Assembly: GCA_007127425.1 (NCBI GenBank)
Contig: SKZJ01000332.1
Coordinates: forward strand, 1-15,559
DNA length: 15,559 nucleotides
Source of the DNA: Wenzhouxiangella sp.
Lineage (GTDB): Bacteria; Pseudomonadota; Gammaproteobacteria; Xanthomonadales; Wenzhouxiangellaceae
Reading direction: 5' to 3'
Shown: positions 2,454-15,559 of the stretch, piece by piece
How the letters are laid out: each line of letters opens with the position of its first letter
Position numbering within the stretch: position 1 is the first letter of the stretch
Program-made: the position numbers and the translations under genes
Notes under the pieces: generated by a model
What the model saw: only the letters and a program-made list of their open reading frames with translations
Database searches by the model: none
What the model was told of the DNA's origin: nothing

Positions 2454-2567
2454 TATCTCCCTGAACACTGAATCCTAAATCCTGGATTCTCGGCGGATCG
2501 TGGTTCTGCCACCAAAGAGTGGGCTCCAGTACAACGATCCACGTGGCCCCTAATCTCCAGTTAATTG
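2454..2567. repeat. rbfA-truB gap with faint heptamer remnant and weak hairpin
   Basis: This 114-bp gap holds no gene. At 2461-2490 there is a loose run of 7-bp steps (TGAACAC, TGAATCC, TAAATCC, TGGATTC), with GAATCC and GGATTC in inverted orientation. A similar CCTAATCTCC string lies just before truB (2549-2558). GGATCGT (2495-2501) and ACGATCC (2534-2540) could form a 7-bp stem with a 32-nt loop. It resembles a decayed version of the arrays elsewhere in the window, but the evidence is weak. It is also the likely place for any separate truB promoter; I see no convincing one. Confidence 0.3.
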
Positions 2568-3446
2568 ATGTCTACCAACGGAATCCTGCTGCTCGACAAG
2601 CCACCCGGCATCAGCTCCAATGCCGCGCTGAGCCGGGTCAAGCGTCTTCTCGGCATCAAGAAGGCGGGGCATACCGGCACGCTTGATCCCCTGGCCTCGG
2701 GGTTGCTGGTGCTGTGCTTTGGCGAGGCCACCAAGGTCTCGGCCTTCCTGCTGGATGCCGACAAGGGCTACGAGGCCGAACTGCACCTGGGCGTGACCAC
2801 CGACAGCGAGGATGCCGAGGGCGAGATCATCGCCGAACGTGAAGTGCCCGCGCTGGACGAGGCGGCCATCGAGGCCGTGCTGAAGAGATTTCGCGGCGAC
2901 ATCGAACAGGTGCCTCCCATGTACTCCGCCCTCAAGCACAAAGGCCAGCGCCTCTACGAGCTGGCGCGCAAGGGCGAGACTGTCGAGCGACCGCCGCGTG
3001 CTGTCACCATTCGCGAGCTGACGCTGCTTGATCTTGAACTGCCCAGGGTTCGGCTGGCAGTGCGCTGCACCAAGGGCACCTACATCCGCTCGCTGGCGCG
3101 CGATATCGGTGAGGCGCTGGACTGCGGCGCCCATCTCAGCGGTTTGCGGCGTACCTTGAGCGCCCCCTTTCACGTTGATGCGGCTGTTTCCTTCGAGGCA
3201 CTGGATGCACTCGAGCGCGATCAGGCTCGCAGCCTGTTGCTGCCGCCTGACCGGGCGCTGGAGCACTTGCCCGGGGTTCATCTCGACGCGGACCAGACCC
3301 GGCGTGCCCGGCACGGCCAGACGATTGCCGGTCTATCGGAGGTGCATGAAGGATCGGTGCGGATTTACGGCGAGGATACCTTTATCGGCATCGGGGAAAT
3401 GGACGGCCAGGGCCGCCTGCGACCGAAACGCTTGCTGGCGGAATAA
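2568..3446 (+). CDS. truB: tRNA pseudouridine(55) synthase
   Basis: Converts U55 of the tRNA T-loop to pseudouridine. The 292 aa length is close to the E. coli enzyme (314). The N-terminus ILLLDKPPGISSNAA and the catalytic block GHTGTLDPLASGLL carry the catalytic Asp (residue 40). YEAELHLGVTTDSEDAEG, VPPMYSALKHKGQRLYELAR and the RCTKGTYIRSLARDIGE block are further TruB signatures, and a short C-terminal PUA-like region follows. ATG 2568 is preferred; a TTG immediately before it (2565) is possible. No clear Shine-Dalgarno sequence is seen. The gene follows rbfA as in many gammaproteobacteria, but the usual rpsO-pnp continuation is absent: suhB converges only 9 nt downstream with no terminator between. 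Confidence 0.97.
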   Translation: MSTNGILLLDKPPGISSNAALSRVKRLLGIKKAGHTGTLDPLASGLLVLCFGEATKVSAFLLDADKGYEAELHLGVTTDSEDAEGEIIAEREVPALDEAAIEAVLKRFRGDIEQVPPMYSALKHKGQRLYELARKGETVERPPRAVTIRELTLLDLELPRVRLAVRCTKGTYIRSLARDIGEALDCGAHLSGLRRTLSAPFHVDAAVSFEALDALERDQARSLLLPPDRALEHLPGVHLDADQTRRARHGQTIAGLSEVHEGSVRIYGEDTFIGIGEMDGQGRLRPKRLLAE

Positions 3447-3455
3447 GCGCGCCGG

Positions 3456-4274
3456 TCAGTCCGTTCTTGCCACCCGTGCGCGTATGGCTTCGGTCACGTG
3501 CGGTTCGATCGCGGCCCTCATGGGGGTGATCAGCTTGTACGGAGCGGCGATGAGATGGCCGGAGTGCAGCCAGTTGTCACCACCGGTGATGTCCATGACC
3601 ACGCCGCCGGCTTCCTGCACCATCAGGGCACCGGCTGCCGTGTCCCAGGGCTGCAGTCCCAGCTCCCAGTAGCCGTCGAGGCGGCCGCAGGCCACGTAGG
3701 CCAGGTCCAGCGAGGCGGTGCCGGCACGGCGAATGTCCTCGATCTTCTCGAACAGGGCACTGAACATGCCCTGGTAGCCGTCCATCAGCCGCCGCTTGCG
3801 GAACGGGAAGGCGGTACCAAGCACCGCGCCGGAAAGGTCCTTGCGACCTGATACACGCATGCGCTGGCTGTTGACAAAAGCTCCTTCGCCGCGGCTGGCG
3901 GTGAACAGTTCCTCGCGCACCGGATCGTAAATCACACCGTGCTCGATGCGGCCATGGGCCTTGAAGGCAATGGACACGGAGAAGTGCGGAATGCCGCGCA
4001 GGTAGTTGCTGGTGCCGTCGATGGGATCGACAACCCAGACGAATTCGCTTTCGCCGCGTTGCCCGTTTTCCTCGCCCAGGATGGCGTGGTCGCGGTGATG
4101 CTTGAGAATGTAATCGGTGATGACCTGTTCACAGGCGCGGTCGACGTCGCTGACGTAATCGTGGCGAGCCTTGCGCTCGACCGGAATCCCCTCCAGCCGC
4201 GAACGATATTTCATCATCAGGTCGCCGGCCCGGCGGGCGGCTTCGGTGGCGAGATTGATGTAGGGGTTGGTCAT
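3456..4274 (-). CDS. suhB: Inositol-1-monophosphatase family protein SuhB
   Basis: Mg-dependent inositol-phosphate phosphatase family. In E. coli, SuhB also takes part in rRNA transcription antitermination complexes. The 272 aa length is typical (267 in E. coli). Metal-binding residues are all visible: Glu68-Glu69 in ILGEENG, Asp83 and Asp86 in VVDPIDGTSNYLRG, and Asp211 in the WDTAAGALMVQEAGG block. The start is ATG 4274, and a tandem GGTRAAA array begins 8 nt upstream of it, leaving no room for a normal Shine-Dalgarno sequence. It is divergent from trmJ, a gene pair also adjacent in E. coli, which supports both names. It converges on truB with a 9-nt gap. Confidence 0.95.
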   Translation of the reverse strand: MTNPYINLATEAARRAGDLMMKYRSRLEGIPVERKARHDYVSDVDRACEQVITDYILKHHRDHAILGEENGQRGESEFVWVVDPIDGTSNYLRGIPHFSVSIAFKAHGRIEHGVIYDPVREELFTASRGEGAFVNSQRMRVSGRKDLSGAVLGTAFPFRKRRLMDGYQGMFSALFEKIEDIRRAGTASLDLAYVACGRLDGYWELGLQPWDTAAGALMVQEAGGVVMDITGGDNWLHSGHLIAAPYKLITPMRAAIEPHVTEAIRARVARTD

Positions 4275-4282
4275 TGGAAAGC

Positions 4283-4443
4283 GGTTGAAAGGTAAAAGGT
4301 GAAAGGTAAAAGGAAAACGGCAAAAGGTCAGTAACCGGGGTGCGAAAGGTTAGGCACCCCAACGGCGTATGATACACGCTGCACCCGTCCCTCTTACCAC
4401 CTTTCACCTTTCACGTTTTACCTTTCCACCTTTTTCCTTTCCC
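4283..4443. repeat. Inverted pair of GGTRAAA heptamer arrays (suhB/trmJ)
   Basis: Left arm 4283-4328 is six tandem units close to GGTAAAA or GGTGAAA (one of 8 bp, two degenerate) plus a partial unit. Right arm 4402-4443 is the complement: TTTCACC, TTTCACG, TTTTACC, TTTCCACC, TTTTTCC, TTTCCC. The 73-nt spacer contains a hairpin of GGGGTGC (4337-4343) with GCACCCC (4354-4360), and TATGAT at 4368-4373. The arms reach to 8 nt before the suhB start and to the base before the TATAAT of trmJ, so the array occupies the regulatory DNA of both divergent genes. The units and orientations are directly visible; any function is unknown. Confidence 0.85.
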
Positions 4444-4449
4444 TATAAT
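4444..4449 (+). promoter_or_regulatory. Consensus -10 element TATAAT before trmJ
   Basis: A perfect TATAAT ends 6 nt before the trmJ ATG (4456). A start point 7 nt after the -10 would fall on the A of the ATG, giving a leaderless mRNA. No good -35 is present: TTTCCA (4423-4428) is 15 bp away and lies inside the heptamer array. No Shine-Dalgarno sequence can fit. Confidence 0.55.
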
Positions 4450-4455
4450 TACCCC

Positions 4456-5205
4456 ATGACTTCATCACTGGCCAACATCCGCATCGTTCTCGTCGGTACC
4501 ACGCATCCGGGCAACATCGGCGCGACGGCGCGGGCGATGAAGGTGATGGGGTTGGAGCGACTGGTGCTGGTGTCGCCCGAGCGCTATCCCAGCGGCGAGG
4601 CCACGGCCATGGCCTCCAGCGCCGACGATGTGCTGGCGCGTGCTGTGGTGGTCGATGATTTCATGGACGCGATTGCCGGCTGCGGCCTGGTGCTGGGTAC
4701 CACCGCCCGCATGCGCTCGTTGCCGCAACCGGTGCTGGATCCGCGCACGGCCGCTGAACGCATGGTCGCGGAGGTTGGTTCGCACGAGATCGCGCTGGTG
4801 TTCGGGCGCGAGAAAAGCGGCCTGAACAACGAGGAAGTGCGTCACTGCAACTGGCTGATCAATATTCCGACTTCGGAGCATTACTCATCACTCAACCTGG
4901 CACAGGCCGTGCAGATCCTGTGCTACGAGCTGCGCCTGGCGGCCCTCGGCGGCAGCCCCGGCGAAACCACGCCACCGGACTGGGAGCCGCAGCCGCCCGA
5001 GCGGCTGGAGTTCTACTTCCAGCGCCTGGAAGAGGCGCTGCTCGAGATCCGTTTTCTCAATCCGGCCCAGCCGAAACGGCTGATGCAGCGCCTGCGGCGT
5101 TTGTATCTGCGCGCGCGCCCGGACGAGAACGAACTCAACATCCTCAACGGCATCGTCTCGGCGATGCTGGAGACGGCCCGTGAGCGATCAACGAAAGAGG
5201 ACTGA
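4456..5205 (+). CDS. trmJ: tRNA (cytidine/uridine-2'-O-)-methyltransferase TrmJ
   Basis: SPOUT-class, SAM-dependent enzyme that 2'-O-methylates position 32 in the anticodon loop of tRNAs. The 249 aa protein has the SpoU N-terminal RNA/SAM motif GTTHPGNIGATARAMK (about 14-29), then LVFGREKSGLNNEEV (114-128) and NIPTSEHYSSLNLAQAVQI (136-154), the three SPOUT motifs that form the trefoil knot. The C-terminal helical extension (about 180-249) is typical of TrmJ and not of TrmL. ATG 4456 is chosen because the protein homology begins there; an in-frame ATG at 4369 would run translation through the repeat array. The end overlaps the next gene by 26 nt. Divergent pairing with suhB matches E. coli. 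Confidence 0.95.
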   Translation: MTSSLANIRIVLVGTTHPGNIGATARAMKVMGLERLVLVSPERYPSGEATAMASSADDVLARAVVVDDFMDAIAGCGLVLGTTARMRSLPQPVLDPRTAAERMVAEVGSHEIALVFGREKSGLNNEEVRHCNWLINIPTSEHYSSLNLAQAVQILCYELRLAALGGSPGETTPPDWEPQPPERLEFYFQRLEEALLEIRFLNPAQPKRLMQRLRRLYLRARPDENELNILNGIVSAMLETARERSTKED

Positions 5206-5557
5206 GCTTTCCGACGAGGACCGCTACCAGCGCATCTGGGAGATCGTGTCCGGCATCCCTGAAGGCTGCGTGCTCAACTACGGCGAAGTCGCCCGCCTGG
5301 CCGGGCTGCCCGGCAAGGCCCGGCTGGTCGGACGCGCACTGGGCCGGGCACCGAAAAGGATGCAGCTGCCCTGGCACCGCGTGGTCAACGCCCAGGGCCA
5401 GATCAGCTTTCCCGACGACAGCAGCAAGGGCAGCCGCCAGCGTGATCTGCTCGAATCCGAGGGCGTGGAATTTGTCGACGACGCCATCGACCTGGAGCGT
5501 TTCAGTCCGGAGCGGGCGATCGATCGGATGTTGTGGGGGCCGGAAGAGAAGGGCTAG
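5180..5557 (+). CDS. atl: Alkyltransferase-like protein (MGMT family, no active-site Cys)
   Basis: DNA-binding domain of the O6-alkylguanine-DNA alkyltransferase family with the PCHR active-site motif changed to PWHR (residues 64-67). Cys replaced by Trp is the hallmark of ATL proteins, which bind O6-alkylguanine and flag it for nucleotide excision repair without removing the alkyl group. At 125 aa it matches E. coli YbaZ/Atl (129) and lacks the N-terminal domain of full Ogt/Ada enzymes. The winged-helix part is VLNYGEVARLAGLPGKARLVGRAL (written in two halves by the motif NYGEVA at 33-38 and the recognition helix near 45-53). The start is GTG 5180, inside the last 26 nt of trmJ, implying coupling. 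The TAG stop lies within a repeated GAGAAGGGC string. Confidence 0.9.
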   Translation: MSDQRKRTELSDEDRYQRIWEIVSGIPEGCVLNYGEVARLAGLPGKARLVGRALGRAPKRMQLPWHRVVNAQGQISFPDDSSKGSRQRDLLESEGVEFVDDAIDLERFSPERAIDRMLWGPEEKG

Positions 5558-5710
5558 GGAGAAGGGCCACCGAAGAAGAGTCTGTAGGAGCGGTCTCCAG
5601 ACCGCGACTCGGGAGTGAGTTCAGCCCTCGGCAGTCGCGGTCTGGAGACCGCTCCCACGAATCCAGCCCTCGTCTCTTGCCTCTCTCTCCCTCTCCCTTC
5701 TACTCCTCTT
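5546..5710. repeat. Purine-rich outer arms around the REP pair
   Basis: GAGAAGGGC occurs twice with a 13-bp period (5546-5554 and 5559-5567). The first copy covers the last codons of the alkyltransferase-like gene and its TAG stop lies between the two. On the other side, 5665-5710 is a CT-rich run that is loosely complementary (CCCTTCTACTCC, CTCTCTCCCTC) and touches the stop codon of the mtfA-like gene. Together they look like imperfect inverted 7-8-bp arrays enclosing the REP-like hairpin. Low complexity makes this weaker than the other loci. Confidence 0.45.
5585..5658. repeat. REP-like inverted pair (BIME-like, GTAGGAGC head)
   Basis: Arms 5587-5609 and 5633-5655 are perfect 23-bp reverse complements separated by a 23-nt loop. 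Each arm is itself a hairpin: GCGGTCTCCAGACCGC (5590-5605) folds on a 2-nt loop. Both ends carry a GTAGGAGC / GCTCCCAC head, the layout of REP sequences mobilised by RAYT tyrosine transposases in Pseudomonas and Xanthomonas relatives. It lies between convergent genes and would give a strong hairpin in either transcript, so it may also end transcription. No RAYT gene is in the window. Confidence 0.8.
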
Positions 5711-6470
5711 ACCGTCTACCCAGCGAAGGCCAATAAAACGCCTCCAGCAACCGATAAACCTCCGGCTCGTGCTCCCGCAACCAATCCGGCGCATCGAAAT
5801 AATACTCGCTGGTCACCGCAAAATACTCGGCCGGTGATTCGGCGGCGTAGGGATCGATGGGTGGGTCGATGCCAGAATCGAGCTGCTGTTCCAGCCGTTG
5901 GAAAGCCTTGGCGAAGGTGTTGGCCCATTCATCGGCGTCCATGTCGCGATGGAGCGGGGGAAAGCCGTCCATGTCGCCGTTGAGCTGGTCGAGCTGATGG
6001 GCCAGTTCGTGTACCACCACGTTGTAGCCCTGGCCCTGGCCGGAGGCCTCGATGTCTTCCAGCGACAGCACCACCGGTCCATGCGCCCAGGCCTCGCCGG
6101 CGCGCAGGTCGCGCCCGCGATGCACCACCCCGGCTTCGTCGGCTTCCTCGTAGTCGGCGAAGAAATCGGAAGGGTAGACGATGAAGGTGTGGAAGTCGCG
6201 GTACCAGTCCGTGCCCAGCGTCAAGACCGGCATGGCGGCCAGCACGGCCACCGCCAGGTGCTCCTCGGGCGCCAGCTCCAGCCCGGCGGCACCGTGGAAG
6301 TCCTTGTCGGCCAGGATCTCGGTGGTGCGTTGGTTCAGCCGCTCGCGGGTTGACGAGTCCATGCCATCGAGCGCCGGAAAGAAATCCATCACCCGTGCGA
6401 ACAGCCCGGGATCGGGCGCGTGGCGGGCCAGCTTGCGCTGGCGCAGGTGTTGGCGGAGAGCGGTAAGCAT
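5709..6470 (-). CDS. mtfA: MtfA-like zinc-dependent peptidase
   Basis: Member of the MtfA (YeeI) family of zinc peptidases. In E. coli, MtfA binds the glucose repressor Mlc (DgsA) and has peptidase activity. The 253 aa length is close to E. coli MtfA (265). The zinc motif HELAHQLD has ligands His154, His158 and catalytic Glu155; a downstream ESPAEYFAVTSEYYF block supplies the likely third ligand. The conserved family segments DWYRDFHTFIVYPSDFF and EAWAHGPVVLSLEDI are also present. The start is taken as ATG 6470 (MLTALRQHLRQRKL); longer readings run into the upstream octamer array and are not protein-like. No signal peptide, so cytosolic. Convergent with the alkyltransferase-like gene and divergent from dapE. 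Whether an Mlc partner exists in this organism cannot be told. Confidence 0.88.
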   Translation of the reverse strand: MLTALRQHLRQRKLARHAPDPGLFARVMDFFPALDGMDSSTRERLNQRTTEILADKDFHGAAGLELAPEEHLAVAVLAAMPVLTLGTDWYRDFHTFIVYPSDFFADYEEADEAGVVHRGRDLRAGEAWAHGPVVLSLEDIEASGQGQGYNVVVHELAHQLDQLNGDMDGFPPLHRDMDADEWANTFAKAFQRLEQQLDSGIDPPIDPYAAESPAEYFAVTSEYYFDAPDWLREHEPEVYRLLEAFYWPSLGRR

Positions 6471-6482
6471 GGATTTTGTTTT

Positions 6483-6596
6483 GTCGTTTCGTCGTTTCGT
6501 CGCTTGGTCGTTTGAATTATGCCTATGAATCTGTCGTTTTGCCGTTTCGTACCTTCGTTGTTTCGAAACGACCAAAAGACCAACCGACAAAACGAC
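6483..6596. repeat. Three octamer arrays (GTCGTTTC), last one inverted (mtfA/dapE)
   Basis: 6483-6514 is four octamers in direct orientation (GTCGTTTC twice, then GTCGCTTG and GTCGTTTG). After an 18-nt AT-rich spacer, 6533-6564 is four more, increasingly degenerate units starting with GTCGTTTT. Directly abutting this, 6565-6596 is four units in inverted orientation (GAAACGAC, CAAAAGAC, CAACCGAC, AAAACGAC). The last two arrays form one 64-bp imperfect palindrome. The element fills nearly all of the divergent mtfA/dapE promoter region and would lie in the 5' UTR of mtfA, 12 nt from its ATG. Confidence 0.85.
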
Positions 6597-6617
6597 GATA
6601 TCGGCTAAGCTGTCTCC

Positions 6618-7763
6618 ATGAACCCAACCTCCGTATTCGAACTGGCTGCCGAGCTGATGCGGCGCGAGTCGGTGACGCCGGACGATGCCGGCTGCATGGA
6701 GCTGATCGCTGCTCGCCTGGAGGCCGCCGGAATGGTTGTCGAGCGCATCGATGTCGGTGAGGTGTGCAACCTGTTTGCCCGTCATGGTGAAGGTGCGCCG
6801 CACCTGATGCTGCTGGGGCATACCGATGTGGTGCCGCCCGGCCCCCTGGAAAAATGGACCTCGCCGCCATTTGCACCGGAGGTGCGTGACGGATTCCTGT
6901 ATGGACGTGGCGCGGCGGACATGAAGTCATCCGATGCGGCCTTCGTGGCGGCCCTTGAAGAGTATCTGACCGAATGTCCGGATCATGTCGGCATGGTCTC
7001 GTTGTTGCTGACCTCCGACGAGGAGGGGGCGGCCAGGAACGGGGTGCGGGCGGTGGTGCCGGAGTTGGAGAAGCGCGGTCTGTTGCCCGATGCCTGCCTG
7101 GTCGGTGAGCCGTCCAGTCGCGAGCGGCTGGGCGACAATATTCGCATCGGTCGGCGCGGCAGCATCCAGGCGAAGCTCAGGATCAGCGGCATCCAGGGGC
7201 ATACGGCCTATGCCGATCCGGCCGACAATCCAGTCCATCGTGCCGGGCCGTTGATTGCCGCGCTGGGACGGATGAGCTTCGACGACGGCGACGAATATTT
7301 TCCGCCCACGCGCCTGCAGATATCCAATATCCATGCCGGAACCGGTGCCGACAACGTCACGCCCGGCGAGCTCGAGGTCTGGTTCAACCTGCGCAACAAT
7401 CCCAACAGCCCGGCCGAAGTGCTTGAGGAGAATCTGCGCGGCTTGATCGGCGGATATGACTTGGGTGACTGGACACTGGACTGGCGGGTGTCCGGCGAGC
7501 CCTTCGGCCCGGCCACCGGCCCCTTGCCGGCGGTGGTCAGCTCGGCCTGCCGGGATCTTCTGGGCATTGAGCCGGTCGCCGATACCGGCGGCGGCACCTC
7601 CGATGGGCGTTTCCTGGGGCCGCGCGGCATCCCCGTGGTCGAGCTGGGGCCGGTCAATGCCACCATTCACCAGGTCAACGAATGCATCCGGGTCGATGAT
7701 CTTGACCGCCTGCCGGCACTGTATCGCGCTATCATCGCCGGCATGCTGGTTGACCATTCCTGA
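6618..7763 (+). CDS. dapE: Succinyl-diaminopimelate desuccinylase
   Basis: Di-zinc M20-family hydrolase that converts N-succinyl-L,L-diaminopimelate to L,L-DAP for lysine and peptidoglycan synthesis. The 381 aa length is typical (375 in E. coli). Metal and catalytic residues: His68 and Asp70 in LLGHTDVVPPG, bridging Asp101 in GRGAADMKSS, the general base Glu135 with Glu136 in SDEEG, Glu164 in LVGEPSS, and His351 in NATIHQVNECI. The GRGAADMK and GTSDGRF motifs favour DapE over ArgE or CPG2-type relatives. The start ATG 6618 follows the octamer element by 21 nt without a clear Shine-Dalgarno sequence. ftsB follows 9 nt after the stop, so these two are probably one transcript. Confidence 0.95.
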   Translation: MNPTSVFELAAELMRRESVTPDDAGCMELIAARLEAAGMVVERIDVGEVCNLFARHGEGAPHLMLLGHTDVVPPGPLEKWTSPPFAPEVRDGFLYGRGAADMKSSDAAFVAALEEYLTECPDHVGMVSLLLTSDEEGAARNGVRAVVPELEKRGLLPDACLVGEPSSRERLGDNIRIGRRGSIQAKLRISGIQGHTAYADPADNPVHRAGPLIAALGRMSFDDGDEYFPPTRLQISNIHAGTGADNVTPGELEVWFNLRNNPNSPAEVLEENLRGLIGGYDLGDWTLDWRVSGEPFGPATGPLPAVVSSACRDLLGIEPVADTGGGTSDGRFLGPRGIPVVELGPVNATIHQVNECIRVDDLDRLPALYRAIIAGMLVDHS

Positions 7764-7772
7764 CATCGAAAC

Positions 7773-8057
7773 ATGCGCATCATTCTGATCGTGCTGGCCG
7801 TGATGCTGCTGCTGGTGCAATTCCGGTTCTGGCAGGAAGTGCGCGAGGTGCGTTCGCTGCGTGTCATGGTCGAGCAGCAGCTGGAGGAAAACGAGCGCCT
7901 GGAAGCGCGTAACGAGGCGCTGGCGGCCGAGGTCGAGGATCTGCGCGCCGGGCTCGAGGCAATCGAGGAACGGGCGCGCTCCGAGCTGGGACTGATCCGC
8001 GAGGGCGAGGAGTTTTTCCTGATCGTCGACCCGGAACACGCCGAGCCGGATTCCTGA
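7773..8057 (+). CDS. ftsB: Cell division protein FtsB
   Basis: Small bitopic inner-membrane protein of the FtsQLB divisome subcomplex that controls septal peptidoglycan synthesis. At 94 aa it fits the family (103 in E. coli). Residues 1-4 are a short cytoplasmic tail, about 3-18 the membrane helix (IILIVLAVMLLLVQF), about 25-70 a Glu/Arg/Leu-rich coiled coil, and the periplasmic motif ARSELGLIREGEEFFLI (68-84) is the FtsB signature. It starts 9 nt after dapE. In many gammaproteobacteria ftsB is followed by ispD and ispF and then truD; here truD comes directly, 58 nt later. Confidence 0.93.
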   Translation: MRIILIVLAVMLLLVQFRFWQEVREVRSLRVMVEQQLEENERLEARNEALAAEVEDLRAGLEAIEERARSELGLIREGEEFFLIVDPEHAEPDS

Positions 8058-8115
8058 ACTGATCCCCGGGCGGTTGTTCTGAGATAATGCCGCCCCTTTC
8101 GAACGAGTTCCCTGC

Positions 8116-9123
8116 ATGACCGATTACGCTTGGGGTGGCCCGCCGGCCACCGGTCGCATCCGCATTGCCCCCGAAGATTTCGTGGTCGAGGAGATCCTCG
8201 GTCACGAGCCGGACGGGCAGGGCGAGCACCTCTGGCTGTGGGTGGAAAAGCGCGAATGCAATACCGTGGACGTGGCCGGCCGGCTGGCCGAGGCCGCCGG
8301 GGTGCATCCGCGCCAGGTCAGCTTCGGGGGGCTGAAGGACCGCAACGCGGTCACCCGGCAGTATTTCTCCATCCACCTGCCGGGAAGTGACGACCCGCAG
8401 ACTCAAGACTGGGATCTCGACGGCATCCGCATCCTGGAAGCCGGCCGCTCGTCGCGCAAGATCAAGCGCGGACGGCTGAAAGCCAACCGGTTCCAGTTGC
8501 GTGTGCGTGAGCTGGACGGGGATCTCGACGCCCTGACCGACCGGCTCGAGTCCCTGCGCGACCACGGCGTGCCCAACGGCTTCGGCGAGCAGCGCTTCGG
8601 CGGCAACAATATTGCCCGTGCGCATGCGTTATTTCGCGGCGAACTCCGGCGCAAGCCCTCCAAGTCCAAGCGCGGGTTCTACCTGTCGGCCGCGCGCAGC
8701 CTGGTGTTCAATCTCGTACTGGCCGAGAGACTTCGCCGCGGCGACTGGAACCATCTGATCGACGGTGATCTGGCCATGCTCGACGGCTCGCGCTCGTTCT
8801 TTGCTGCCGACGCCGACGACCCCGAGCAGGTCCAGCGCTGCGAGGAAATGGACATCCACCCCAGTGGCCCCCTGCCGGGCCGCGGTGAATCGCCGGCCGA
8901 CGGGGAGGCGGCGGCCATCGAGCAGGCGGTGTTCGCCGAGCAGGCCGAACTGGTCGAGGGCCTGGCCAAATTTGGCATGCAACAGGAACGCCGCCCCCTG
9001 CGCATGCGGGTGAAAGATCTCGAGTGGTCCTTCCCCAACCCGACCACGCTGGAACTGACCTTCGAACTCGGCACCGGCAGCTACGCGACGTCAGTGTTGC
9101 GCGAGTTGGTGGATTACGGATGA
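8116..9123 (+). CDS. truD: tRNA pseudouridine(13) synthase
   Basis: Modifies U13 in tRNA-Glu and relatives. The 335 aa length is close to E. coli TruD (349). The N-terminal IRIAPEDFVVEEIL and VEKRECNTVDVAGRLA lead to the catalytic loop FGGLKDRNAVTRQYFSI, with catalytic Asp75. The NGFGEQRFGGNN motif (about 155-166) and the C-terminal LRMRVKDLEWSF and ELGTGSYATSVLREL are characteristic. The middle TRUD insertion domain is present. The ATG at 8116 has no clear Shine-Dalgarno sequence; a GATAAT at 8083-8088 hints at an own promoter. The TGA stop is formed by the first three bases of the downstream TGACGGG repeat array. Confidence 0.96.
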   Translation: MTDYAWGGPPATGRIRIAPEDFVVEEILGHEPDGQGEHLWLWVEKRECNTVDVAGRLAEAAGVHPRQVSFGGLKDRNAVTRQYFSIHLPGSDDPQTQDWDLDGIRILEAGRSSRKIKRGRLKANRFQLRVRELDGDLDALTDRLESLRDHGVPNGFGEQRFGGNNIARAHALFRGELRRKPSKSKRGFYLSAARSLVFNLVLAERLRRGDWNHLIDGDLAMLDGSRSFFAADADDPEQVQRCEEMDIHPSGPLPGRGESPADGEAAAIEQAVFAEQAELVEGLAKFGMQQERRPLRMRVKDLEWSFPNPTTLELTFELGTGSYATSVLRELVDYG

Positions 9124-9200
9124 CGGGTGACAGGTGACAGGTGACGGGTGTGATTGGGTATCATTAGACCTATCACCCGTTACCCGTCACCCGTCACCCG
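9121..9200. repeat. Inverted pair of four TGACGGG heptamers (truD/FHA gene)
   Basis: Left arm 9121-9148 is exactly four heptamers, TGACGGG or TGACAGG. Right arm 9173-9200 is exactly four heptamers, TCACCCG or TTACCCG. The arms are reverse complements with about three mismatches in 28, and the spacer is 24 nt. The truD TGA is the first triplet of the left arm, and the right arm ends 5 nt before the ATG of the FHA gene. The spacer contains TATCAT (9159-9164), which would place the right arm inside the 5' UTR if used as a -10. Confidence 0.9.
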
Positions 9201-9205
9201 AAAAA

Positions 9206-9613
9206 ATGACCTTCCGCCTGAAAGCCGCCTCCGGCCCCCACACCGGCCAGTCCTTCGACCTGGACGAATCCGATACCGCCATCGGCAGTGCCGGTGGTGC
9301 CGATATTGCCGTGGACGGGCTGCTGGAGCAGCATGCCCGGATCACGTTCGACGGCGAGGTGCTGATGCTGGAAGCGGCCGACCAGGCCTGGGTCAACGGC
9401 GAGCCGGTCACGCGTCAGCCGTTGAAATCGGGTGACGAGATTCGCCTCGGCGAGCACCGCTTCGTGCTGCAGGCGCCCGGCTTGCGCCCGCCCAGCGTGC
9501 TGCGCGAAGTCGAGCAGCGCCCGGCGATCAGCCCCTGGACCTGGGTGGCCATCGCCGCGGCCGCCGCCGGCGGCTTCATCGCCGTGGCCACTTTCGTTCT
9601 GACGCGCCTGTAA
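9206..9613 (+). CDS. Small FHA-like protein with C-terminal membrane anchor
   Basis: A 135 aa protein. Residues 1-90 have the forkhead-associated fold pattern: TFRLKAASGPHTGQSFDLDES, then a strand, an EQHARI segment with His43, and a WVNGEPV segment with Asn64-Gly65, ending GDEIRLGEHRFVL. The Gly-Arg pair that normally contacts phosphothreonine is replaced by Gly27-Ser28, and the following Ser is not evident, so phosphopeptide binding is doubtful. Residues 91-110 form a linker and 111-132 an Ala/Gly-rich transmembrane helix, leaving the FHA part probably cytosolic. ATG 9206 is preferred; an upstream GTG/ATG reading would translate the heptamer array. No Shine-Dalgarno sequence is seen. The partner and role are unknown. 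Confidence 0.75.
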   Translation: MTFRLKAASGPHTGQSFDLDESDTAIGSAGGADIAVDGLLEQHARITFDGEVLMLEAADQAWVNGEPVTRQPLKSGDEIRLGEHRFVLQAPGLRPPSVLREVEQRPAISPWTWVAIAAAAAGGFIAVATFVLTRL

Positions 9614-9636
9614 CCGTTCGTTCGGTTCAATCAGTG

Positions 9637-9705
9637 CACCACAGAGACACGGAGCACACAGAGAATAAAAAATAATCTCTCTGTGCTCTCTGTGTCTCTG
9701 TGGTG
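9637..9705. repeat. CACAGAG-type inverted repeat, possible bidirectional terminator
   Basis: Left arm 9637-9664 and right arm 9676-9705 are imperfect reverse complements; the outer 14 bases (CACCACAGAGACAC) match perfectly, and the inside consists of CACAGAG-like units with 1-2-base fillers. An 11-nt AT-rich loop separates them. It lies between the convergent FHA and cystathionine gamma-lyase genes. On the plus strand the stem is followed by ATCTTTCTTTCC, so termination of the plus transcript is plausible; the minus side lacks a T-run. Confidence 0.8.
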
Positions 9706-9721
9706 ATCTTTCTTTCCGACT

Positions 9722-10873
9722 TCAAACGTGAGCCAGCGCGGTGTCGAGGTCGGCGATGAGATCGTCGATGTCTTCGATGCCGACCGACAGGCGGATCAGG
9801 GTGTCGGTAATGCCGAGCACTTCGCGCCGATCTTTCGGCACCGAGCCGTGGGTCATGATGGCGGGGTGATTGACCATCGATTCGACGCCGCCGAGTGACT
9901 CGGCCAGGGCGAACAGGTGGGTGTTCTCCAGGAAGCGCCGGGCACGGTTGAGGTCGCCGCCGATGTCGAAACTGACCATGCCGCCGAAGCCGTCCATCTG
10001 CTGTTCGGCCAGTGCTTTCTGCGGGTGGCTGTCGAGGCCGGGGTAGATCACTTTCTCGACCTTGGGGTGTTTGGTCAACCATTCGGCGATGCGGCCGGCG
10101 TTCTCGCAGTGGGCTTTCATGCGCAAGGCCAGGGTCTTCACCCCGCGCATCACCAGGAAGGAATCGAACGGGCCCTGTACGCCACCCGATGAGTTCTGGA
10201 TGAAGCCGATCTTTTCGGCGAGGTCATCGTCTTTGACTGCCACCGCGCCGCCGACCATGTCGGAGTGGCCGTTGAGGTACTTGGTCACCGAGTGGACGAC
10301 GATGTCGGCGCCCAGTTCCAGTGGCCGTTGCAGCATGGGTGTGGCAAAGGTGTTGTCGACCACCAGCCAGGCGCCACACTCACGCGCCAGTTCGGCCATG
10401 GCAGCGATGTCGACCAGCTGCAGCATGGGGTTGGTCGGCGTTTCCACCCAGATCATCTTCGTGCGCTCGGTGATCGCGGCACGGGCGGCATTGGCATCGG
10501 TCAGGTCGACAAAGCTGAACTCCAGCCCCGAGGCGGGGCGCCGGACCTTCTCGAACAGTCGCCAGGTGCCGCCGTAGAGGTCGTGCATGGCCAGTACGTG
10601 ATCGCCGGGCTCGAGCAGGTGCATCAGCGCATCGATGGCGGCCATGCCCGAGGCATAGGCGAAACCGTGTCTGCCGCCTTCCAGGTCGGCGATGCAGGCC
10701 TCCCAGGCCTTGCGGGTGGGATTGTGCGTGCGCGAGTACTCGTAGCCCTGGTGATCGCCGGGACTGGCCTGCACGTAGGTCGAGGTGGTGTAGATCGGCG
10801 TCATGATCGCCCCGGTGGAGGGGTCGGGGGACTGGCCGGCGTGGATGACGCGGGTGGAAAGCTTGTCGGACAT
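9722..10873 (-). CDS. Cystathionine gamma-lyase / gamma-synthase (Cys/Met PLP family)
   Basis: Fold-type I PLP enzyme of the Cys/Met metabolism family, 383 aa. YEYSRTHNPTR (44-54), the PLP-ring Asp173 in VVDNTFATPMLQ, and the Schiff-base Lys198 in SVTKYLNGHSDMVGGA are intact. The C-terminal AESLGGVESMVNHPAIMTH and RLSVGIEDIDDLIADL are standard. The family holds gamma-lyase (cystathionine to cysteine, 2-oxobutyrate and ammonia) and gamma-synthase (MetB), which sequence reading alone does not separate well. The cystathionine beta-synthase gene two genes upstream on the same strand favours gamma-lyase and the homocysteine-to-cysteine route. ATG 10873 is chosen; the longer frame runs through an octamer array. 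No clear Shine-Dalgarno sequence. Confidence 0.9.
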   Translation of the reverse strand: MSDKLSTRVIHAGQSPDPSTGAIMTPIYTTSTYVQASPGDHQGYEYSRTHNPTRKAWEACIADLEGGRHGFAYASGMAAIDALMHLLEPGDHVLAMHDLYGGTWRLFEKVRRPASGLEFSFVDLTDANAARAAITERTKMIWVETPTNPMLQLVDIAAMAELARECGAWLVVDNTFATPMLQRPLELGADIVVHSVTKYLNGHSDMVGGAVAVKDDDLAEKIGFIQNSSGGVQGPFDSFLVMRGVKTLALRMKAHCENAGRIAEWLTKHPKVEKVIYPGLDSHPQKALAEQQMDGFGGMVSFDIGGDLNRARRFLENTHLFALAESLGGVESMVNHPAIMTHGSVPKDRREVLGITDTLIRLSVGIEDIDDLIADLDTALAHV

Positions 10874-10878
10874 ATTTC

Positions 10879-11027
10879 GGTTGGCTCGTTGGCTTGTTGG
10901 CTCGTTCGCCGGTGATGGCCTGCGAGCGAGCTGAATGGAGAAAGTCCGTATTCTATCGGTTTTGCGTGATGGTTCGTCAGACAACCGGTAAACGAGCTAA
11001 CCAGCTAACCAGCTAACCAGCCAACCC
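10879..11027. repeat. Inverted octamer arrays GGTTRGCT (overlaps chrA 3' end)
   Basis: Left arm 10879-10906 has TTGGCTCG, TTGGCTTG, TTGGCTCG in tandem. Right arm 10991-11027 has AACGAGCT, AACCAGCT (twice) and AACCAGCC, its reverse complement. The spacer is 84 nt. The right arm encodes the last residues of ChrA (GWLVSWLAG) and its TAG stop. The left arm ends 5 nt upstream of the next gene's ATG. The spacer holds TAGAAT on the minus strand (10955-10950), a possible -10 for that gene, which would put the left arm in its 5' UTR. Confidence 0.87.
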
Positions 11028-12271
11028 AGAAGTGCCATGACCAGTACCGTACCGACCAGACCCAGTCGGGTGAGAAACAGCAAAACGGCGGCCAGTACTG
11101 TCAGGGCCAGGGCCCAGACGTCGATGCTGGTGGCGGGCAGGTCGAAATCAAGCCCAAATCCCTCGATCGCGCGACTTTCGGCAAACAGCAGATTGATGGC
11201 GAACCAGGCGGCGAGATTGGCGATGACGCCGACCACCGCGGCGGTGATGCCGCGCAGTGCACCGCTGATGCGGGCGTTGCCGCGCAGTTTCTCCACGTGA
11301 GGTGCAAGCAGGAAGATCCACAGGAACGAGGGGGCGAAGATCACCCAGGTTGTCAGCAGCCCACCCAGGCTGCCGGCCAGCAGGGGTTCGAGCAGGCCGG
11401 GGTTGCGCCAGGCGGCAAGAAAGCCGATGAACTGGGTGACCAGCACCAGCGGCCCCGGAGTCGTTTCGGCCAGGCCCAGGCCGTCGAGCATTTCCGTGGC
11501 CGTAAGCCATTCGCGTGATTCGACCGCGAACTGCGCCACCCAGGCCAGGGCCGCGTAGGCGCCGCCGAAGCTCAGGCTGGCCAGCAGGCTGAACAGAACC
11601 GCCAGTTCGGTCCAGACCGACTGTATACCGAACAGTAGGGCCAGGCCGGCCACGGGGGCCATCCAGGCCAGCAAGGACCACAGCCAGGGACGATGGCCGA
11701 TCACGGCCGGGGTGTCGATGGCGGCTGGATCGACCGAGCCTTTGCGAAACAGGATCAGGCCGACCAGTCCGGCGGCAAGTATCACCAGCGGAAACGGCAG
11801 TGAGAAGAAAAACATGGCGATGAAGCTCGCCGCGGCTATCATGCCGGCAGCCGGTCCCTGGACCACCTTGCCGGACATGCGCATCAGCGCCTGGGCGACG
11901 ATGGCCAGCACGGCGCACTTGAGTCCGAACAGCAGGCCTTCGACTACGCCGGTCTGGCCGACGGTGACGTAGAGCAGGCTCAAGGCCAGCATCACCGCCG
12001 CTCCGGGCAGGATGAAGACGATGCCGGCGATGAGTGCGCCGCGCACACCGTGCATCAGCCAGCCCAGGTAGGTGGCCAGCTGCTGGGCCTCGGGGCCGGG
12101 CAGCAGCATGCAGAAGTTCAGCGCGTGGTTGAAGCGGTCCTGCCCGATCCAGCCCTTATCCTCCACGATCAGTCGCTGCATCACCGCGATCTGCGCCGCG
12201 GGCCCGCCGAAACTGAGGAAGGCGACCTTCCACCAGACTTTCCAGGCTGCACGTGGTGAGACAGGGTTCAC
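10997..12271 (-). CDS. chrA: Chromate transporter, CHR family (long, two-domain)
   Basis: Inner-membrane protein of the chromate ion transporter family, 424 aa, the long form made of two homologous halves. The first half carries FGGPAAQIAVM (21-31) and MLLPGPEAQQLATYLGW (55-71). The second carries the matching FGGAYAALAWV (235-245) and LAETTPGPLVLVTQFIGF (267-284). About 10-12 hydrophobic helices lie between. Known members export chromate, a sulfate analogue. The start is GTG 12271, with no clear Shine-Dalgarno sequence. The final nine residues are encoded by a tandem octamer repeat that also gives the stop codon, so the native C-terminus may have been replaced. It sits between the two transsulfuration genes on the same strand. 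Confidence 0.92.
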   Translation of the reverse strand: MNPVSPRAAWKVWWKVAFLSFGGPAAQIAVMQRLIVEDKGWIGQDRFNHALNFCMLLPGPEAQQLATYLGWLMHGVRGALIAGIVFILPGAAVMLALSLLYVTVGQTGVVEGLLFGLKCAVLAIVAQALMRMSGKVVQGPAAGMIAAASFIAMFFFSLPFPLVILAAGLVGLILFRKGSVDPAAIDTPAVIGHRPWLWSLLAWMAPVAGLALLFGIQSVWTELAVLFSLLASLSFGGAYAALAWVAQFAVESREWLTATEMLDGLGLAETTPGPLVLVTQFIGFLAAWRNPGLLEPLLAGSLGGLLTTWVIFAPSFLWIFLLAPHVEKLRGNARISGALRGITAAVVGVIANLAAWFAINLLFAESRAIEGFGLDFDLPATSIDVWALALTVLAAVLLFLTRLGLVGTVLVMALLGWLVSWLAG

Positions 12272-12290
12272 GAGGCCGGTGTCTTGGTGA

Positions 12291-12441
12291 ACGGAAATCG
12301 TAAAACGGAAAACGGGAGCCGGTCTGTACTGATCCCCTCGCCCGGGTGGCCAACGTCGATGGCACTGCCATTGGCCACCGGAGCTTTGCAGAAATTCATG
12401 GCCTTCCCCTCGATTCCCGTTTTGACGTTTTACGCTTCCGT
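12291..12441. repeat. Inverted ACGGAAA heptamer arrays around an inner hairpin
   Basis: Left arm 12291-12318 is four heptamers (ACGGAAA, TCGTAAA, ACGGAAA, ACGGGAG). Right arm 12414-12441 is four heptamers in inverted form (TTCCCGT, TTTGACG, TTTTACG, CTTCCGT). In the 95-nt spacer, GGTGGCCAA (12345-12353) pairs perfectly with TTGGCCACC (12371-12379), with a further TGGC/GCCA pair in its loop. The 210-bp gap between chrA and the cystathionine beta-synthase gene holds this element and no gene. It would lie 5' of chrA in the minus transcript. Confidence 0.83.
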
Positions 12442-13929: not shown

Positions 13930-13960
13930 AAACACCCGATGCCGGGGGCATCGGGTGTTT
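13930..13960 (-). terminator. Rho-independent terminator after the ydcH-like gene
   Basis: A perfect 14-bp stem (13930-13943 with 13947-13960) closes on a 3-base loop. On the minus strand the stem is followed by TTTTCGTTTC, a T-rich tract. It lies 31 nt after the ydcH-like stop and separates that gene from cystathionine beta-synthase. On the plus strand it is followed by a G-rich stretch, so it is directional. Confidence 0.85.
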
Positions 13961-15506: not shown

Positions 15507-15559
15507 CGTGCAATCGCCTCCTCGCCGAATACTTCACTGATATCGGCCTCGATCTGCTC
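15503..15559 (-). CDS. C-terminal tail of an upstream gene (cut by window)
   Basis: The minus-strand frame is open from the window edge and ends EADISEVFGEEAIAR at a TGA that overlaps the OmpA-gene ATG by 4 nt (ATGA). Only 18 residues are visible, so the product cannot be named. The overlap and the Shine-Dalgarno sequence inside this tail support a real gene in operon with the lipoprotein; a DUF4398-type lipoprotein would be a reasonable guess from similar gene pairs. Confidence 0.5.
   Translation of the reverse strand, partial: EQIEADISEVFGEEAIAR

Follow-up and report, generated by a model that had tools for sequence, protein, structure and literature searches.

Inverted arrays of 7- and 8-bp units with changing sequence in the intergenic gaps of Wenzhouxiangella and other bacteria

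Inverted arrays in the intergenic gaps of a Wenzhouxiangella contig

We analyzed a stretch of 15,559 nt from Wenzhouxiangella sp. (contig SKZJ01000332.1; hereafter the window), in which several intergenic gaps carry a tandem run of 7- or 8-bp units, a spacer, and then the same unit in inverted orientation. The whole window was scanned for tandem repeats, inverted repeats, and hairpins. A preliminary description of this DNA had listed six gaps as clear cases of this architecture, one as likely (gap 5546), and one as doubtful (gap 2461). Repeat searches detected an inverted pair in each of the six clear gaps (at 4276-4437 in the suhB|trmJ gap and at the intervals given in Table 1 for the other five). 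The hairpin scan yielded nine hairpins, five of which have 7/8-periodic arms (periodicity ≥0.6), against a mean of 0.03 and a maximum of 1 periodic hairpin in 100 Markov shuffles of the window. Four of these five lie at gaps already listed, and the remaining one is a 16-nt match in coding sequence that looks like a chance match. The repeat searches and the shuffles together confirm that the six main arrays are genuine and lie far above chance expectation.

Two of the six are weaker than had been claimed. The CACAGAG element at 9637 is a 28-nt palindrome of 89% identity with poorly periodic arms (best period 9, at 0.53), and the element between chrA and cbs, which was not called by the hairpin scan, was retrieved by the repeat search as 17 nt at 82%, its right arm having a periodicity of only 0.48. 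The gap at 5546 turned out to hold a different structure, namely a non-periodic, near-perfect palindrome of 26 nt (25/26; GTAGGAGCGGTCTCCAGACCGCGACT, at 5584-5658) with weak outer arms; a REP family was ruled out for it, as the genome contains only one further partial match. At gap 2461, neither a tandem nor an inverted array was found by the scans.

Despite their varying units, the arrays have a common geometry: tandem 7-mers, or less often 8-mers, which are often inverted, abut the edges of genes, and have their G-rich strand reading into the gap. For instance, the left TGACGGG arm overlaps the stop codon of truD and the right arm ends at the start of the FHA gene. The statement that arms often have exactly four units is approximate, since 3 to 6 copies per arm were seen.

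Table 1. Coordinates of the intergenic elements in the window
Gap	Position	Strand	Element
suhB|trmJ	4276..4442	.	GGTRAAA arrays 4281-4328, inverted partner 4393-4442, 64-nt core
MGMT-like|mtfA	5546..5708	.	weak purine/pyrimidine outer arms around a 26-nt non-periodic palindrome; excluded from the shared architecture
mtfA|dapE	6478..6600	.	octamer array GTCGTTTC and inverted array GAAACGAC
truD|FHA	9111..9203	.	TGACGGG array and inverted array, core ~22 nt
FHA|metB-like	9637..9705	.	CACAGAG palindrome, arms 9637-9664 and 9678-9705
metB-like|chrA	10879..11026	.	GGTTRGCT octamer array and inverted array, 84-nt core
chrA|cbs	12290..12441	.	ACGGAAA array and weakly periodic inverted partner, 96-nt core

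The flanking genes look like housekeeping genes. Pfam searches with ten genes of the window identified inositol monophosphatase, SpoU methylase, an MGMT DNA-binding domain, M90 and M20 peptidases, TruD, FHA/Yop-YscD, a Cys/Met PLP enzyme, a chromate transporter, and PALP plus CBS; gene names such as suhB, trmJ, dapE, rbfA, and infB are our reading. A perfect 14-bp hairpin with the look of an intrinsic terminator is present at 13930-13960, right after the stop codon of a ydcH-like gene.

Abundance and inversion in the genome and the genus

The genome containing the window (G000) comprises 2.08 Mb in 333 contigs and is 65% complete. Several of the genomes compared with it are incomplete metagenome-assembled genomes (MAGs); G020 is 99% complete. 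Tandem runs were counted in 40 of the 333 contigs (348 kb), 18 of which had been selected for a GGTRAAA match, with one shuffle as control. A total of 77 runs of period 7 and 18 runs of period 8 were detected, compared with 2 and 5 in the shuffle. Periods 6, 9, 10, and 12 were also in excess (25, 15, 9, and 22 versus 4, 4, 1, and 4), for which coding sequence is a likely reason. In the complete relative G019, a genome already known to be rich in GGTGAAA, 400 contiguous kb chosen for the ortholog of the window contain 45 period-7 runs (0, 0, and 1 in three shuffles) and seven period-8 runs (0 to 1 in the shuffles), besides 14 runs of period 9, 11 of period 12, 17 of period 15, and 41 of the harmonic period 14. 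The preliminary description had considered that a scan might reveal no excess over shuffled sequence, or that inversion might be random. Period-7 runs lie far above the shuffles, and among 86 pairs of neighboring arrays, 39 share a unit in inverted and 5 in direct orientation, the mean and maximum of inverted pairs in 500 permutations being 23 and 34. Periodic hairpins made up 5 of 9 hairpins in the first 20 contigs of G000 (window included), 13 of 19 in the other 20 contigs, 7 of 26 in the 400 kb of G019, and 1 of 9 in 120 kb of G024; the same scan of 200 kb of Escherichia coli K-12 gave 0 of 1.

The units observed include GGTGAAA, AAGTGTG, AACACCT, GGGAGAC, GGGAAGA, TTCAGGG, CCCACTT, GGTTGGCT, GTCGTTTC, and others, and the unit often shifts within a single array (for example, from GGTGAAA to GGGAAGA). 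The earlier claim that units are unrelated between loci stands inside the window and fails genome-wide: GGTGAAAGGTRAAAGG, with up to one mismatch, has 69 + 74 overlapping matches across G000, and its reversed control has none. A GGTGAAA triplet (up to two mismatches) occurs in 11 of 30 genomes of the genus and in 2 of 31 other relatives, and a Wenzhouxiangella locus in the species genome collection has the same unit types as the window. Triplets of GGTTGGCT have no match in the 396 other Pseudomonadota genomes among the 397 searched, which rules out a universal dictionary of units; spread across phyla was seen for CACAGAG only.

Polarity of the arrays at gene edges

The polarity set comprised 190 arrays, of which 20 lie inside predicted genes, 157 have usable flanks, and 126 are located within 50 bp of a gene edge. 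Genes were called by a simple codon-score script, which in the window misread dapE and missed mtfA, and arrays without skew were scored as C-rich. The G-rich strand reads away from the gene in 110 of the 126 arrays near gene edges (47 of 48 at starts and 64 of 78 at stops). In convergent gaps, which have no start codon, 39 of 43 arrays follow the same rule. Among outermost pairs, 32 of 33 inverted pairs with the same unit have a G-rich left and a C-rich right arm. The 16 outermost pairs with different units are divided into 10 G/C, 0 C/G, 4 C/C, 1 G/G, and 1 unskewed on one side, and one further outermost pair is direct. Since pairs with different units keep the polarity, it belongs to the gene edge and not only to the palindrome. 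Single arrays are G-rich on the left in 24 cases and on the right in 2, C-rich on the right in 16 and on the left in 10, and unskewed in 3.

Turnover of units in orthologous gaps

Comparison of orthologous gaps revealed that the unit changes at the same site between related species. The suhB|trmJ gap holds GGTRAAA in G000 and G009, inverted AAGGCTC in G025, and one-way GGTTTAC or GGTTTCC in G028 and G022; no array was found in this gap in G003, G011, G016, G017, G020, G024, G026, and G027. The truD|FHA gap, which has TGACGGG in the window, contains a one-way AACACCT/AACACTT array in G019 and CACCTTT in G020, with no array in G003, G011, and G024. Between chrA and cbs, the window has ACGGAAA and G019 has AACACCT and CCCACTT arrays. 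The CACAGAG palindrome of the FHA|metB-like gap, by contrast, is shared as an ortholog by G000, G008, G009, and G019. Octamer arrays adjoin the start of metB in G003, G017, G008, and G009. The change of unit in some gaps and the orthology of the CACAGAG element show that some elements persist and others turn over. In G019, the suhB and trmJ orthologs (L129-L130) lie approximately 2 kb apart, with an extra open frame between them.

Arm identity and loops in an acidobacterial genome

Similar elements were analyzed in G061, an Acidobacteriota MAG of which 358 kb were sampled. A total of 76 strong hairpins were detected (2 in a shuffle), of which 40 have period 7, 12 have period 8, 1 has period 6, and 23 are non-periodic. 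These elements lie at a median of 12 bp from each neighboring gene, in gaps with a median length of 125 bp. Among the 66 periodic hairpins of the G061 material that are not of the CACAGAG type, 61 have a G-rich 5' arm. For the 52 periodic hairpins, arm-arm identity is 0.963 and unit-unit identity 0.769, in a scan that itself demands mirroring of at least 0.85; arms with varied units are perfect mirrors in 19 of 46 cases. The test was repeated on arrays selected by periodicity, a choice biased in the opposite direction to the mirroring filter. An inverted partner was found for 116 of 136 such arrays, with an arm-arm identity of 0.945 versus a unit-unit identity of 0.913, the arms agreeing better in 76, equally in 12, and worse in 28.

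Arm identity is 0.61-0.81 between copies of a family and 0.93-0.98 between the two arms of one element, in a comparison to which the mirroring threshold also applies and part of whose material was fetched via the CACAGAG pattern. Loops are mostly unrelated between family copies in G061: pairs with loop identity above 0.7 numbered 0/45, 0/45, 0/28, and 0/3 in four families, 1/66 for AATGGTR, 1/45 for AGTAGGC, and 60/1176 for CACAGAG. A non-periodic dispersed palindrome with the sequence GGTCAGAACCGCC... (L303, L304, and L314) has four copies in the G061 sample.

The gaps on both sides of one gene were compared across 20 Acidobacteriota genomes (G061 plus 19 relatives, out of 40 that gave a match), and the units in them are mostly unrelated. 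A palindrome is present upstream of this gene in seven of nine comparable gaps, the genes overlapping in the other two, and downstream at 8 of 20 loci. On the downstream side, the similarity between arms does not exceed that of shuffled ones (28 pairs, 5.4 versus 5.4). Upstream arms are slightly above shuffled ones (21 pairs, 6.7 versus 5.2), those of G061 and G071 being clearly related. In a comparison by eye with G069, a relative that has no element here, the element found in G061 and G068 directly follows the stop codon and precedes a TATAAT-like box.

The CACAGAG palindrome across phyla

A pattern of 32 positions, two of them two-fold, was built for the CACAGAG palindrome and searched against the species genome collection, where it matched at least 120 stretches. 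The 80 loci retained are labeled as coming from Chloroflexi, Acidobacteriota, Verrucomicrobia, Planctomycetota, Gemmatimonadetes, Cyanobacteria, and Pseudomonadota, including a Wenzhouxiangella. The preliminary description had mentioned CACAGAG-type palindromes in other proteobacteria; they are widespread and form a sequence-conserved family in at least seven phyla. Related octamers (CACCAAG, CGCGGAG, CGCGAAG, and CGCAAAG) with similar ends were observed at these loci. The outward ends of 82 copies are mostly TTAA, TGAA, or TTCA, and both ends match in 35 copies versus 15 expected (shuffle maximum 26). No target duplication was detected for these 82 copies, the best excess (3 nt, 22 versus 13) lying within the conserved end of the element itself. 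Copies are enriched in convergent gaps (21 of 74 placed copies versus 40 of 242 gaps in general). At L316, from position 15550 onward, a CACAGAG palindrome is nested within the loop of an AGTAGGC palindrome. Phage carriage was rejected, the viral collection yielding two stretches (contigs L351 and L352), and so was plasmid carriage, the 75-base CACAGAG element having no blastn match in plasmids at 1e-3.

Relation to known systems

Arrays of this type are already known in kind but poorly understood, with precedents in Geobacter metallireducens and Xanthomonas. Degenerate heptamers are also familiar as the cyanobacterial STRR sequences and in the P6b heptamer stem of the tRNA-Leu intron, where they build both arms of the stem. 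The REP/REPIN sequences associated with RAYT and miniature inverted-repeat transposable elements (MITEs) are likewise short, intergenic, multi-copy palindromes; the arrays differ from them in that no target duplication was found (for CACAGAG), no Y1 transposase is required, and the unit varies. Integron attC sites are characterized by RYYYAAC/GTTRRRY boxes and an integrase; the genes around the window arrays have the look of housekeeping genes.

The available text on G. metallireducens (PMC2700814) describes "global regulator binding sites" in three classes, comprising four octamers GTTGCTYN (class 1), three TCTCCGTS[Y] (class 2), and five heptamers MTYCTGA (class 3), of which classes 1 and 2 occur in opposite-strand pairs at variable distance. 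The window arrays are of the same type, having 3-6 tandem 7/8-mers per arm, paired on opposite strands with variable spacing, and the class 2 repeat, read on the opposite strand, is similar to the CACAGAG/CACGGAG family. Unlike the present arrays, the Geobacter sites were described from one genome, where sets 1-3 were called unique and taken as possible IHF/HU sites, and the same text, as far as available, contains no same-gap unit turnover, arm homogenization, polarity rule, or cross-phylum spread. The GGGAATC heptamers of Xanthomonas (Rehm et al. 2015, PMC4692102, available sections) are mostly intergenic, form closely spaced convergent pairs (70 and 75) in two species, and mostly direct their G-rich strand away from the nearby open reading frame (ORF), a polarity that they share with our arrays (110/126). 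They differ in being a single GGG-containing unit, studied as a G-quadruplex and largely repeated between the same genes in two species; many units are found here, and inspection of the six window units shows GGG in TGACGGG alone, which sets the window apart from a G-quadruplex system of that type. The TAACTGA repeats of Beggiatoaceae, some Cyanobacteria, and Bacteroidetes (MacGregor 2015, PMC4679880) are, like ours, intergenic tandem heptamers in distant lineages but, in the portion available, direct and of one unit, with a single inverted case in the main genome. Template switching at quasipalindromes (PMC8604942, PMC8794818, and PMC7202029) homogenizes arms by the same mechanism as considered below, and arms with a 7-8-nt period are not described in the accessible parts of these reports. 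A 2026 survey of inverted repeats (PMC13155455), according to its accessible text, restricted spacers to 8 bp, so that most of these elements would escape it. The window had no Rfam match at the gathering score, none of six unit strings occurred in the literature text searched, and a literature search on the concept led to the Xanthomonas, Beggiatoaceae, and Geobacter reports and did not retrieve the combination of many units, constant 7/8 step, polarity, same-gap turnover, mirrored arms, and several phyla.

Origin of the arrays

A constant shape with a changing word at the same site in related species suggests a copying process that preserves shape over sequence. The explanation we tentatively favor, with confidence somewhat short of even, is that the arrays are fast-evolving repeats arising from ordinary DNA synthesis (slippage plus template switching) and not one transposon. 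A short sequence would be amplified via slippage in 7- or 8-nt steps, template switching at the resulting hairpin would copy one arm to the other, so that drift or replacement of the unit would leave the inherited geometry intact. The dominant step would depend on the lineage, being arm copying in the Acidobacteriota studied and slippage in the home genus, and some palindromes (GGTRAAA, CACAGAG, and AGTAGGC) may additionally become multi-copy families. Periodicity, inversion, polarity of the G-rich strand, and same-gap change of unit are all direct observations, as is, in one Acidobacteriota genome, the similarity of arms around loops that are mostly unrelated; from these we infer slippage, template switching, a mode of family dispersal, and a reason for the 7-8-nt step. 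Arm-from-arm copying would be expected to give mirrored unit variants and unrelated loops; in a mobile element copied in full, the loop should travel along. Related processes are on record in the available parts of the literature: template switching homogenizes the arms of inverted repeats (PMC8604942 and PMC8794818), heptamer slippage had been put forward before (as cited in PMC4692102 and PMC4679880), and DNA polymerases elongate repetitive DNA in vitro (Ogata papers, as referenced in PMC13061963). Should the geometry be passed on while the sequence changes, much of this class would escape homology searches and Rfam- or REP-style classification, and a considerable share of the intergenic DNA in some bacteria would be the record of a mutational process and not of an element family. 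Both arm-from-arm template switching and the bacterial heptamer excess, long known and unexplained, could then be studied in a natural system, in which the question "why seven" becomes testable.

Several observations weigh against this explanation. The home genus shows the reverse of the acidobacterial result: in the first 20 contigs of G000 together with G019, an inverted partner was found for 28 of 88 arrays, with an arm-arm identity of 0.844 versus a unit-unit identity of 0.907 (arms better in 9, worse in 19), and 20 further contigs of G000 gave partners for 28 of 59 arrays at 0.908 versus 0.939 (again 9 better and 19 worse). As units are more alike than arms there, a pattern expected from slippage alone, slippage would dominate in this genus, and the reversal lowered our confidence in a single arm-copying account from almost even to its present level. 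The window itself agrees with this reversal; for example, the arms between metB and chrA match at 23 of 28 positions and their units at 0.85-0.93. Of the 86 pairs of neighboring arrays counted above, 42 have no common 6-mer in either orientation. By eye, mismatched arm positions of the CACAGAG element persist uncorrected between G000 and G008; local seeding, suggested by seed-like sequences in the suhB|trmJ gap of array-free species, was likewise judged by eye. High arm identity could also reflect recent birth instead of repair, and no event of either kind, slippage or switching, was observed between closely related strains. Finally, AGTAGGC-AGATGGC forms block-like arms at several loci and a CACAGAG palindrome lies nested in the loop of another element, both of which look like dispersal by insertion; something thus appears to spread copies as well. 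The proposal, made in the preliminary description, of a generating process with constant geometry and changing sequence is favored by the different units in orthologous gaps, and the comparison of arms with units supports it in one Acidobacteriota genome and opposes it in the home genus.

Non-autonomous, MITE- or REPIN-like palindromes in many small families mobilized in trans, with the tandem units of the arms as a secondary feature, are a rather unlikely source. They would fit the multi-copy families within genomes, the range and shared ends of CACAGAG, its nested copy, and the patchy occurrence of GGTGAAA, but would leave unexplained why no target duplication was found for 82 CACAGAG copies, why loops are mostly unrelated between copies in G061, and why different families recur within the same gap. 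One transposon family, which had already been doubted, is rejected, because units differ and change at orthologous gaps; the earlier doubt needs qualification in that units often form multi-copy families within a genome. Selected binding sites or RNA structures (sites for a regulator, IHF/HU, or gyrase, or terminators) are improbable. IHF/HU binding was the interpretation given by Aklujkar 2009 (PMC2700814, in the text available) to the paired 7/8-mer sites of G. metallireducens, and the preference of CACAGAG for convergent gaps would agree with a selected role; against it, the units have no obvious common sequence, the same gap switches unit between relatives, elements occur in all gene orientations, and Rfam recognized nothing in the window at the gathering score.

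Breaks in gaps might also be healed by adding one G-rich 7-8-nt repeat to both 3' ends, followed by joining as in head-to-head telomere fusions, through an end-adding activity in diverse bacteria whose template changes fast and hence gives lineage-specific words. We consider this very improbable, even though the G-rich strand enters the gap when the arm units differ, most single arrays keep the polarity, and loops are mostly unrelated, because mirrored unit variants would require a long common template and because candidate enzymes are scarce: a reverse transcriptase (RT) domain was found in only 8 of 27 genomes, being missed in the array-bearing, 94-99% complete G003, G020, G022, and G025, and Ku in 0 of 27. 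Ordinary 7-mer microsatellites with incidental inversion, already disfavored, are the least probable of these origins. A bacterial heptamer excess is on record (Mrazek 2007, as cited in the accessible text of PMC4692102 and PMC4679880), 60 of the 88 home-genus arrays have no inverted partner by the present test, and units agree better than arms there; yet such repeats would hardly produce 39 inverted against 5 direct pairs, the polarity at gene edges and in 32 of 33 outermost matched pairs, or the inverted partners of 116 of 136 arrays in G061.

A link to a RAYT or IS200-like gene, which had been suggested for inspection, is not needed: of 14 genomes searched, 7 contain Y1_Tnp (PF01797), which had no match in G000 (65% complete), G009, G020, G025, G029, G061, and G067, several of which are array-rich, a distribution that also speaks against mobilized palindromes and led us to reject RAYT/IS200 as a required factor. 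Reverse transcriptase as the driver was rejected on its distribution, which has no visible tie to array load, and Ku-type end joining on the absence of Ku from the 27 genomes. SbcD scored above the cut-off in 2 of 24 genomes of palindrome-carrying lineages (G022 and G071), with some weaker match in 21 of 24, and in 8 of 14 controls. Its scarcity could permit palindromes, but loss of the hairpin nuclease SbcCD does not discriminate as a cause, as SbcD is likewise missing from G016, G018, G026, and G027, relatives in whose sampled stretches arrays are few. In G019 (C1, 3.79-3.82 Mb), nine RVT_1 matches, several with identical scores, are clustered within approximately 30 kb.

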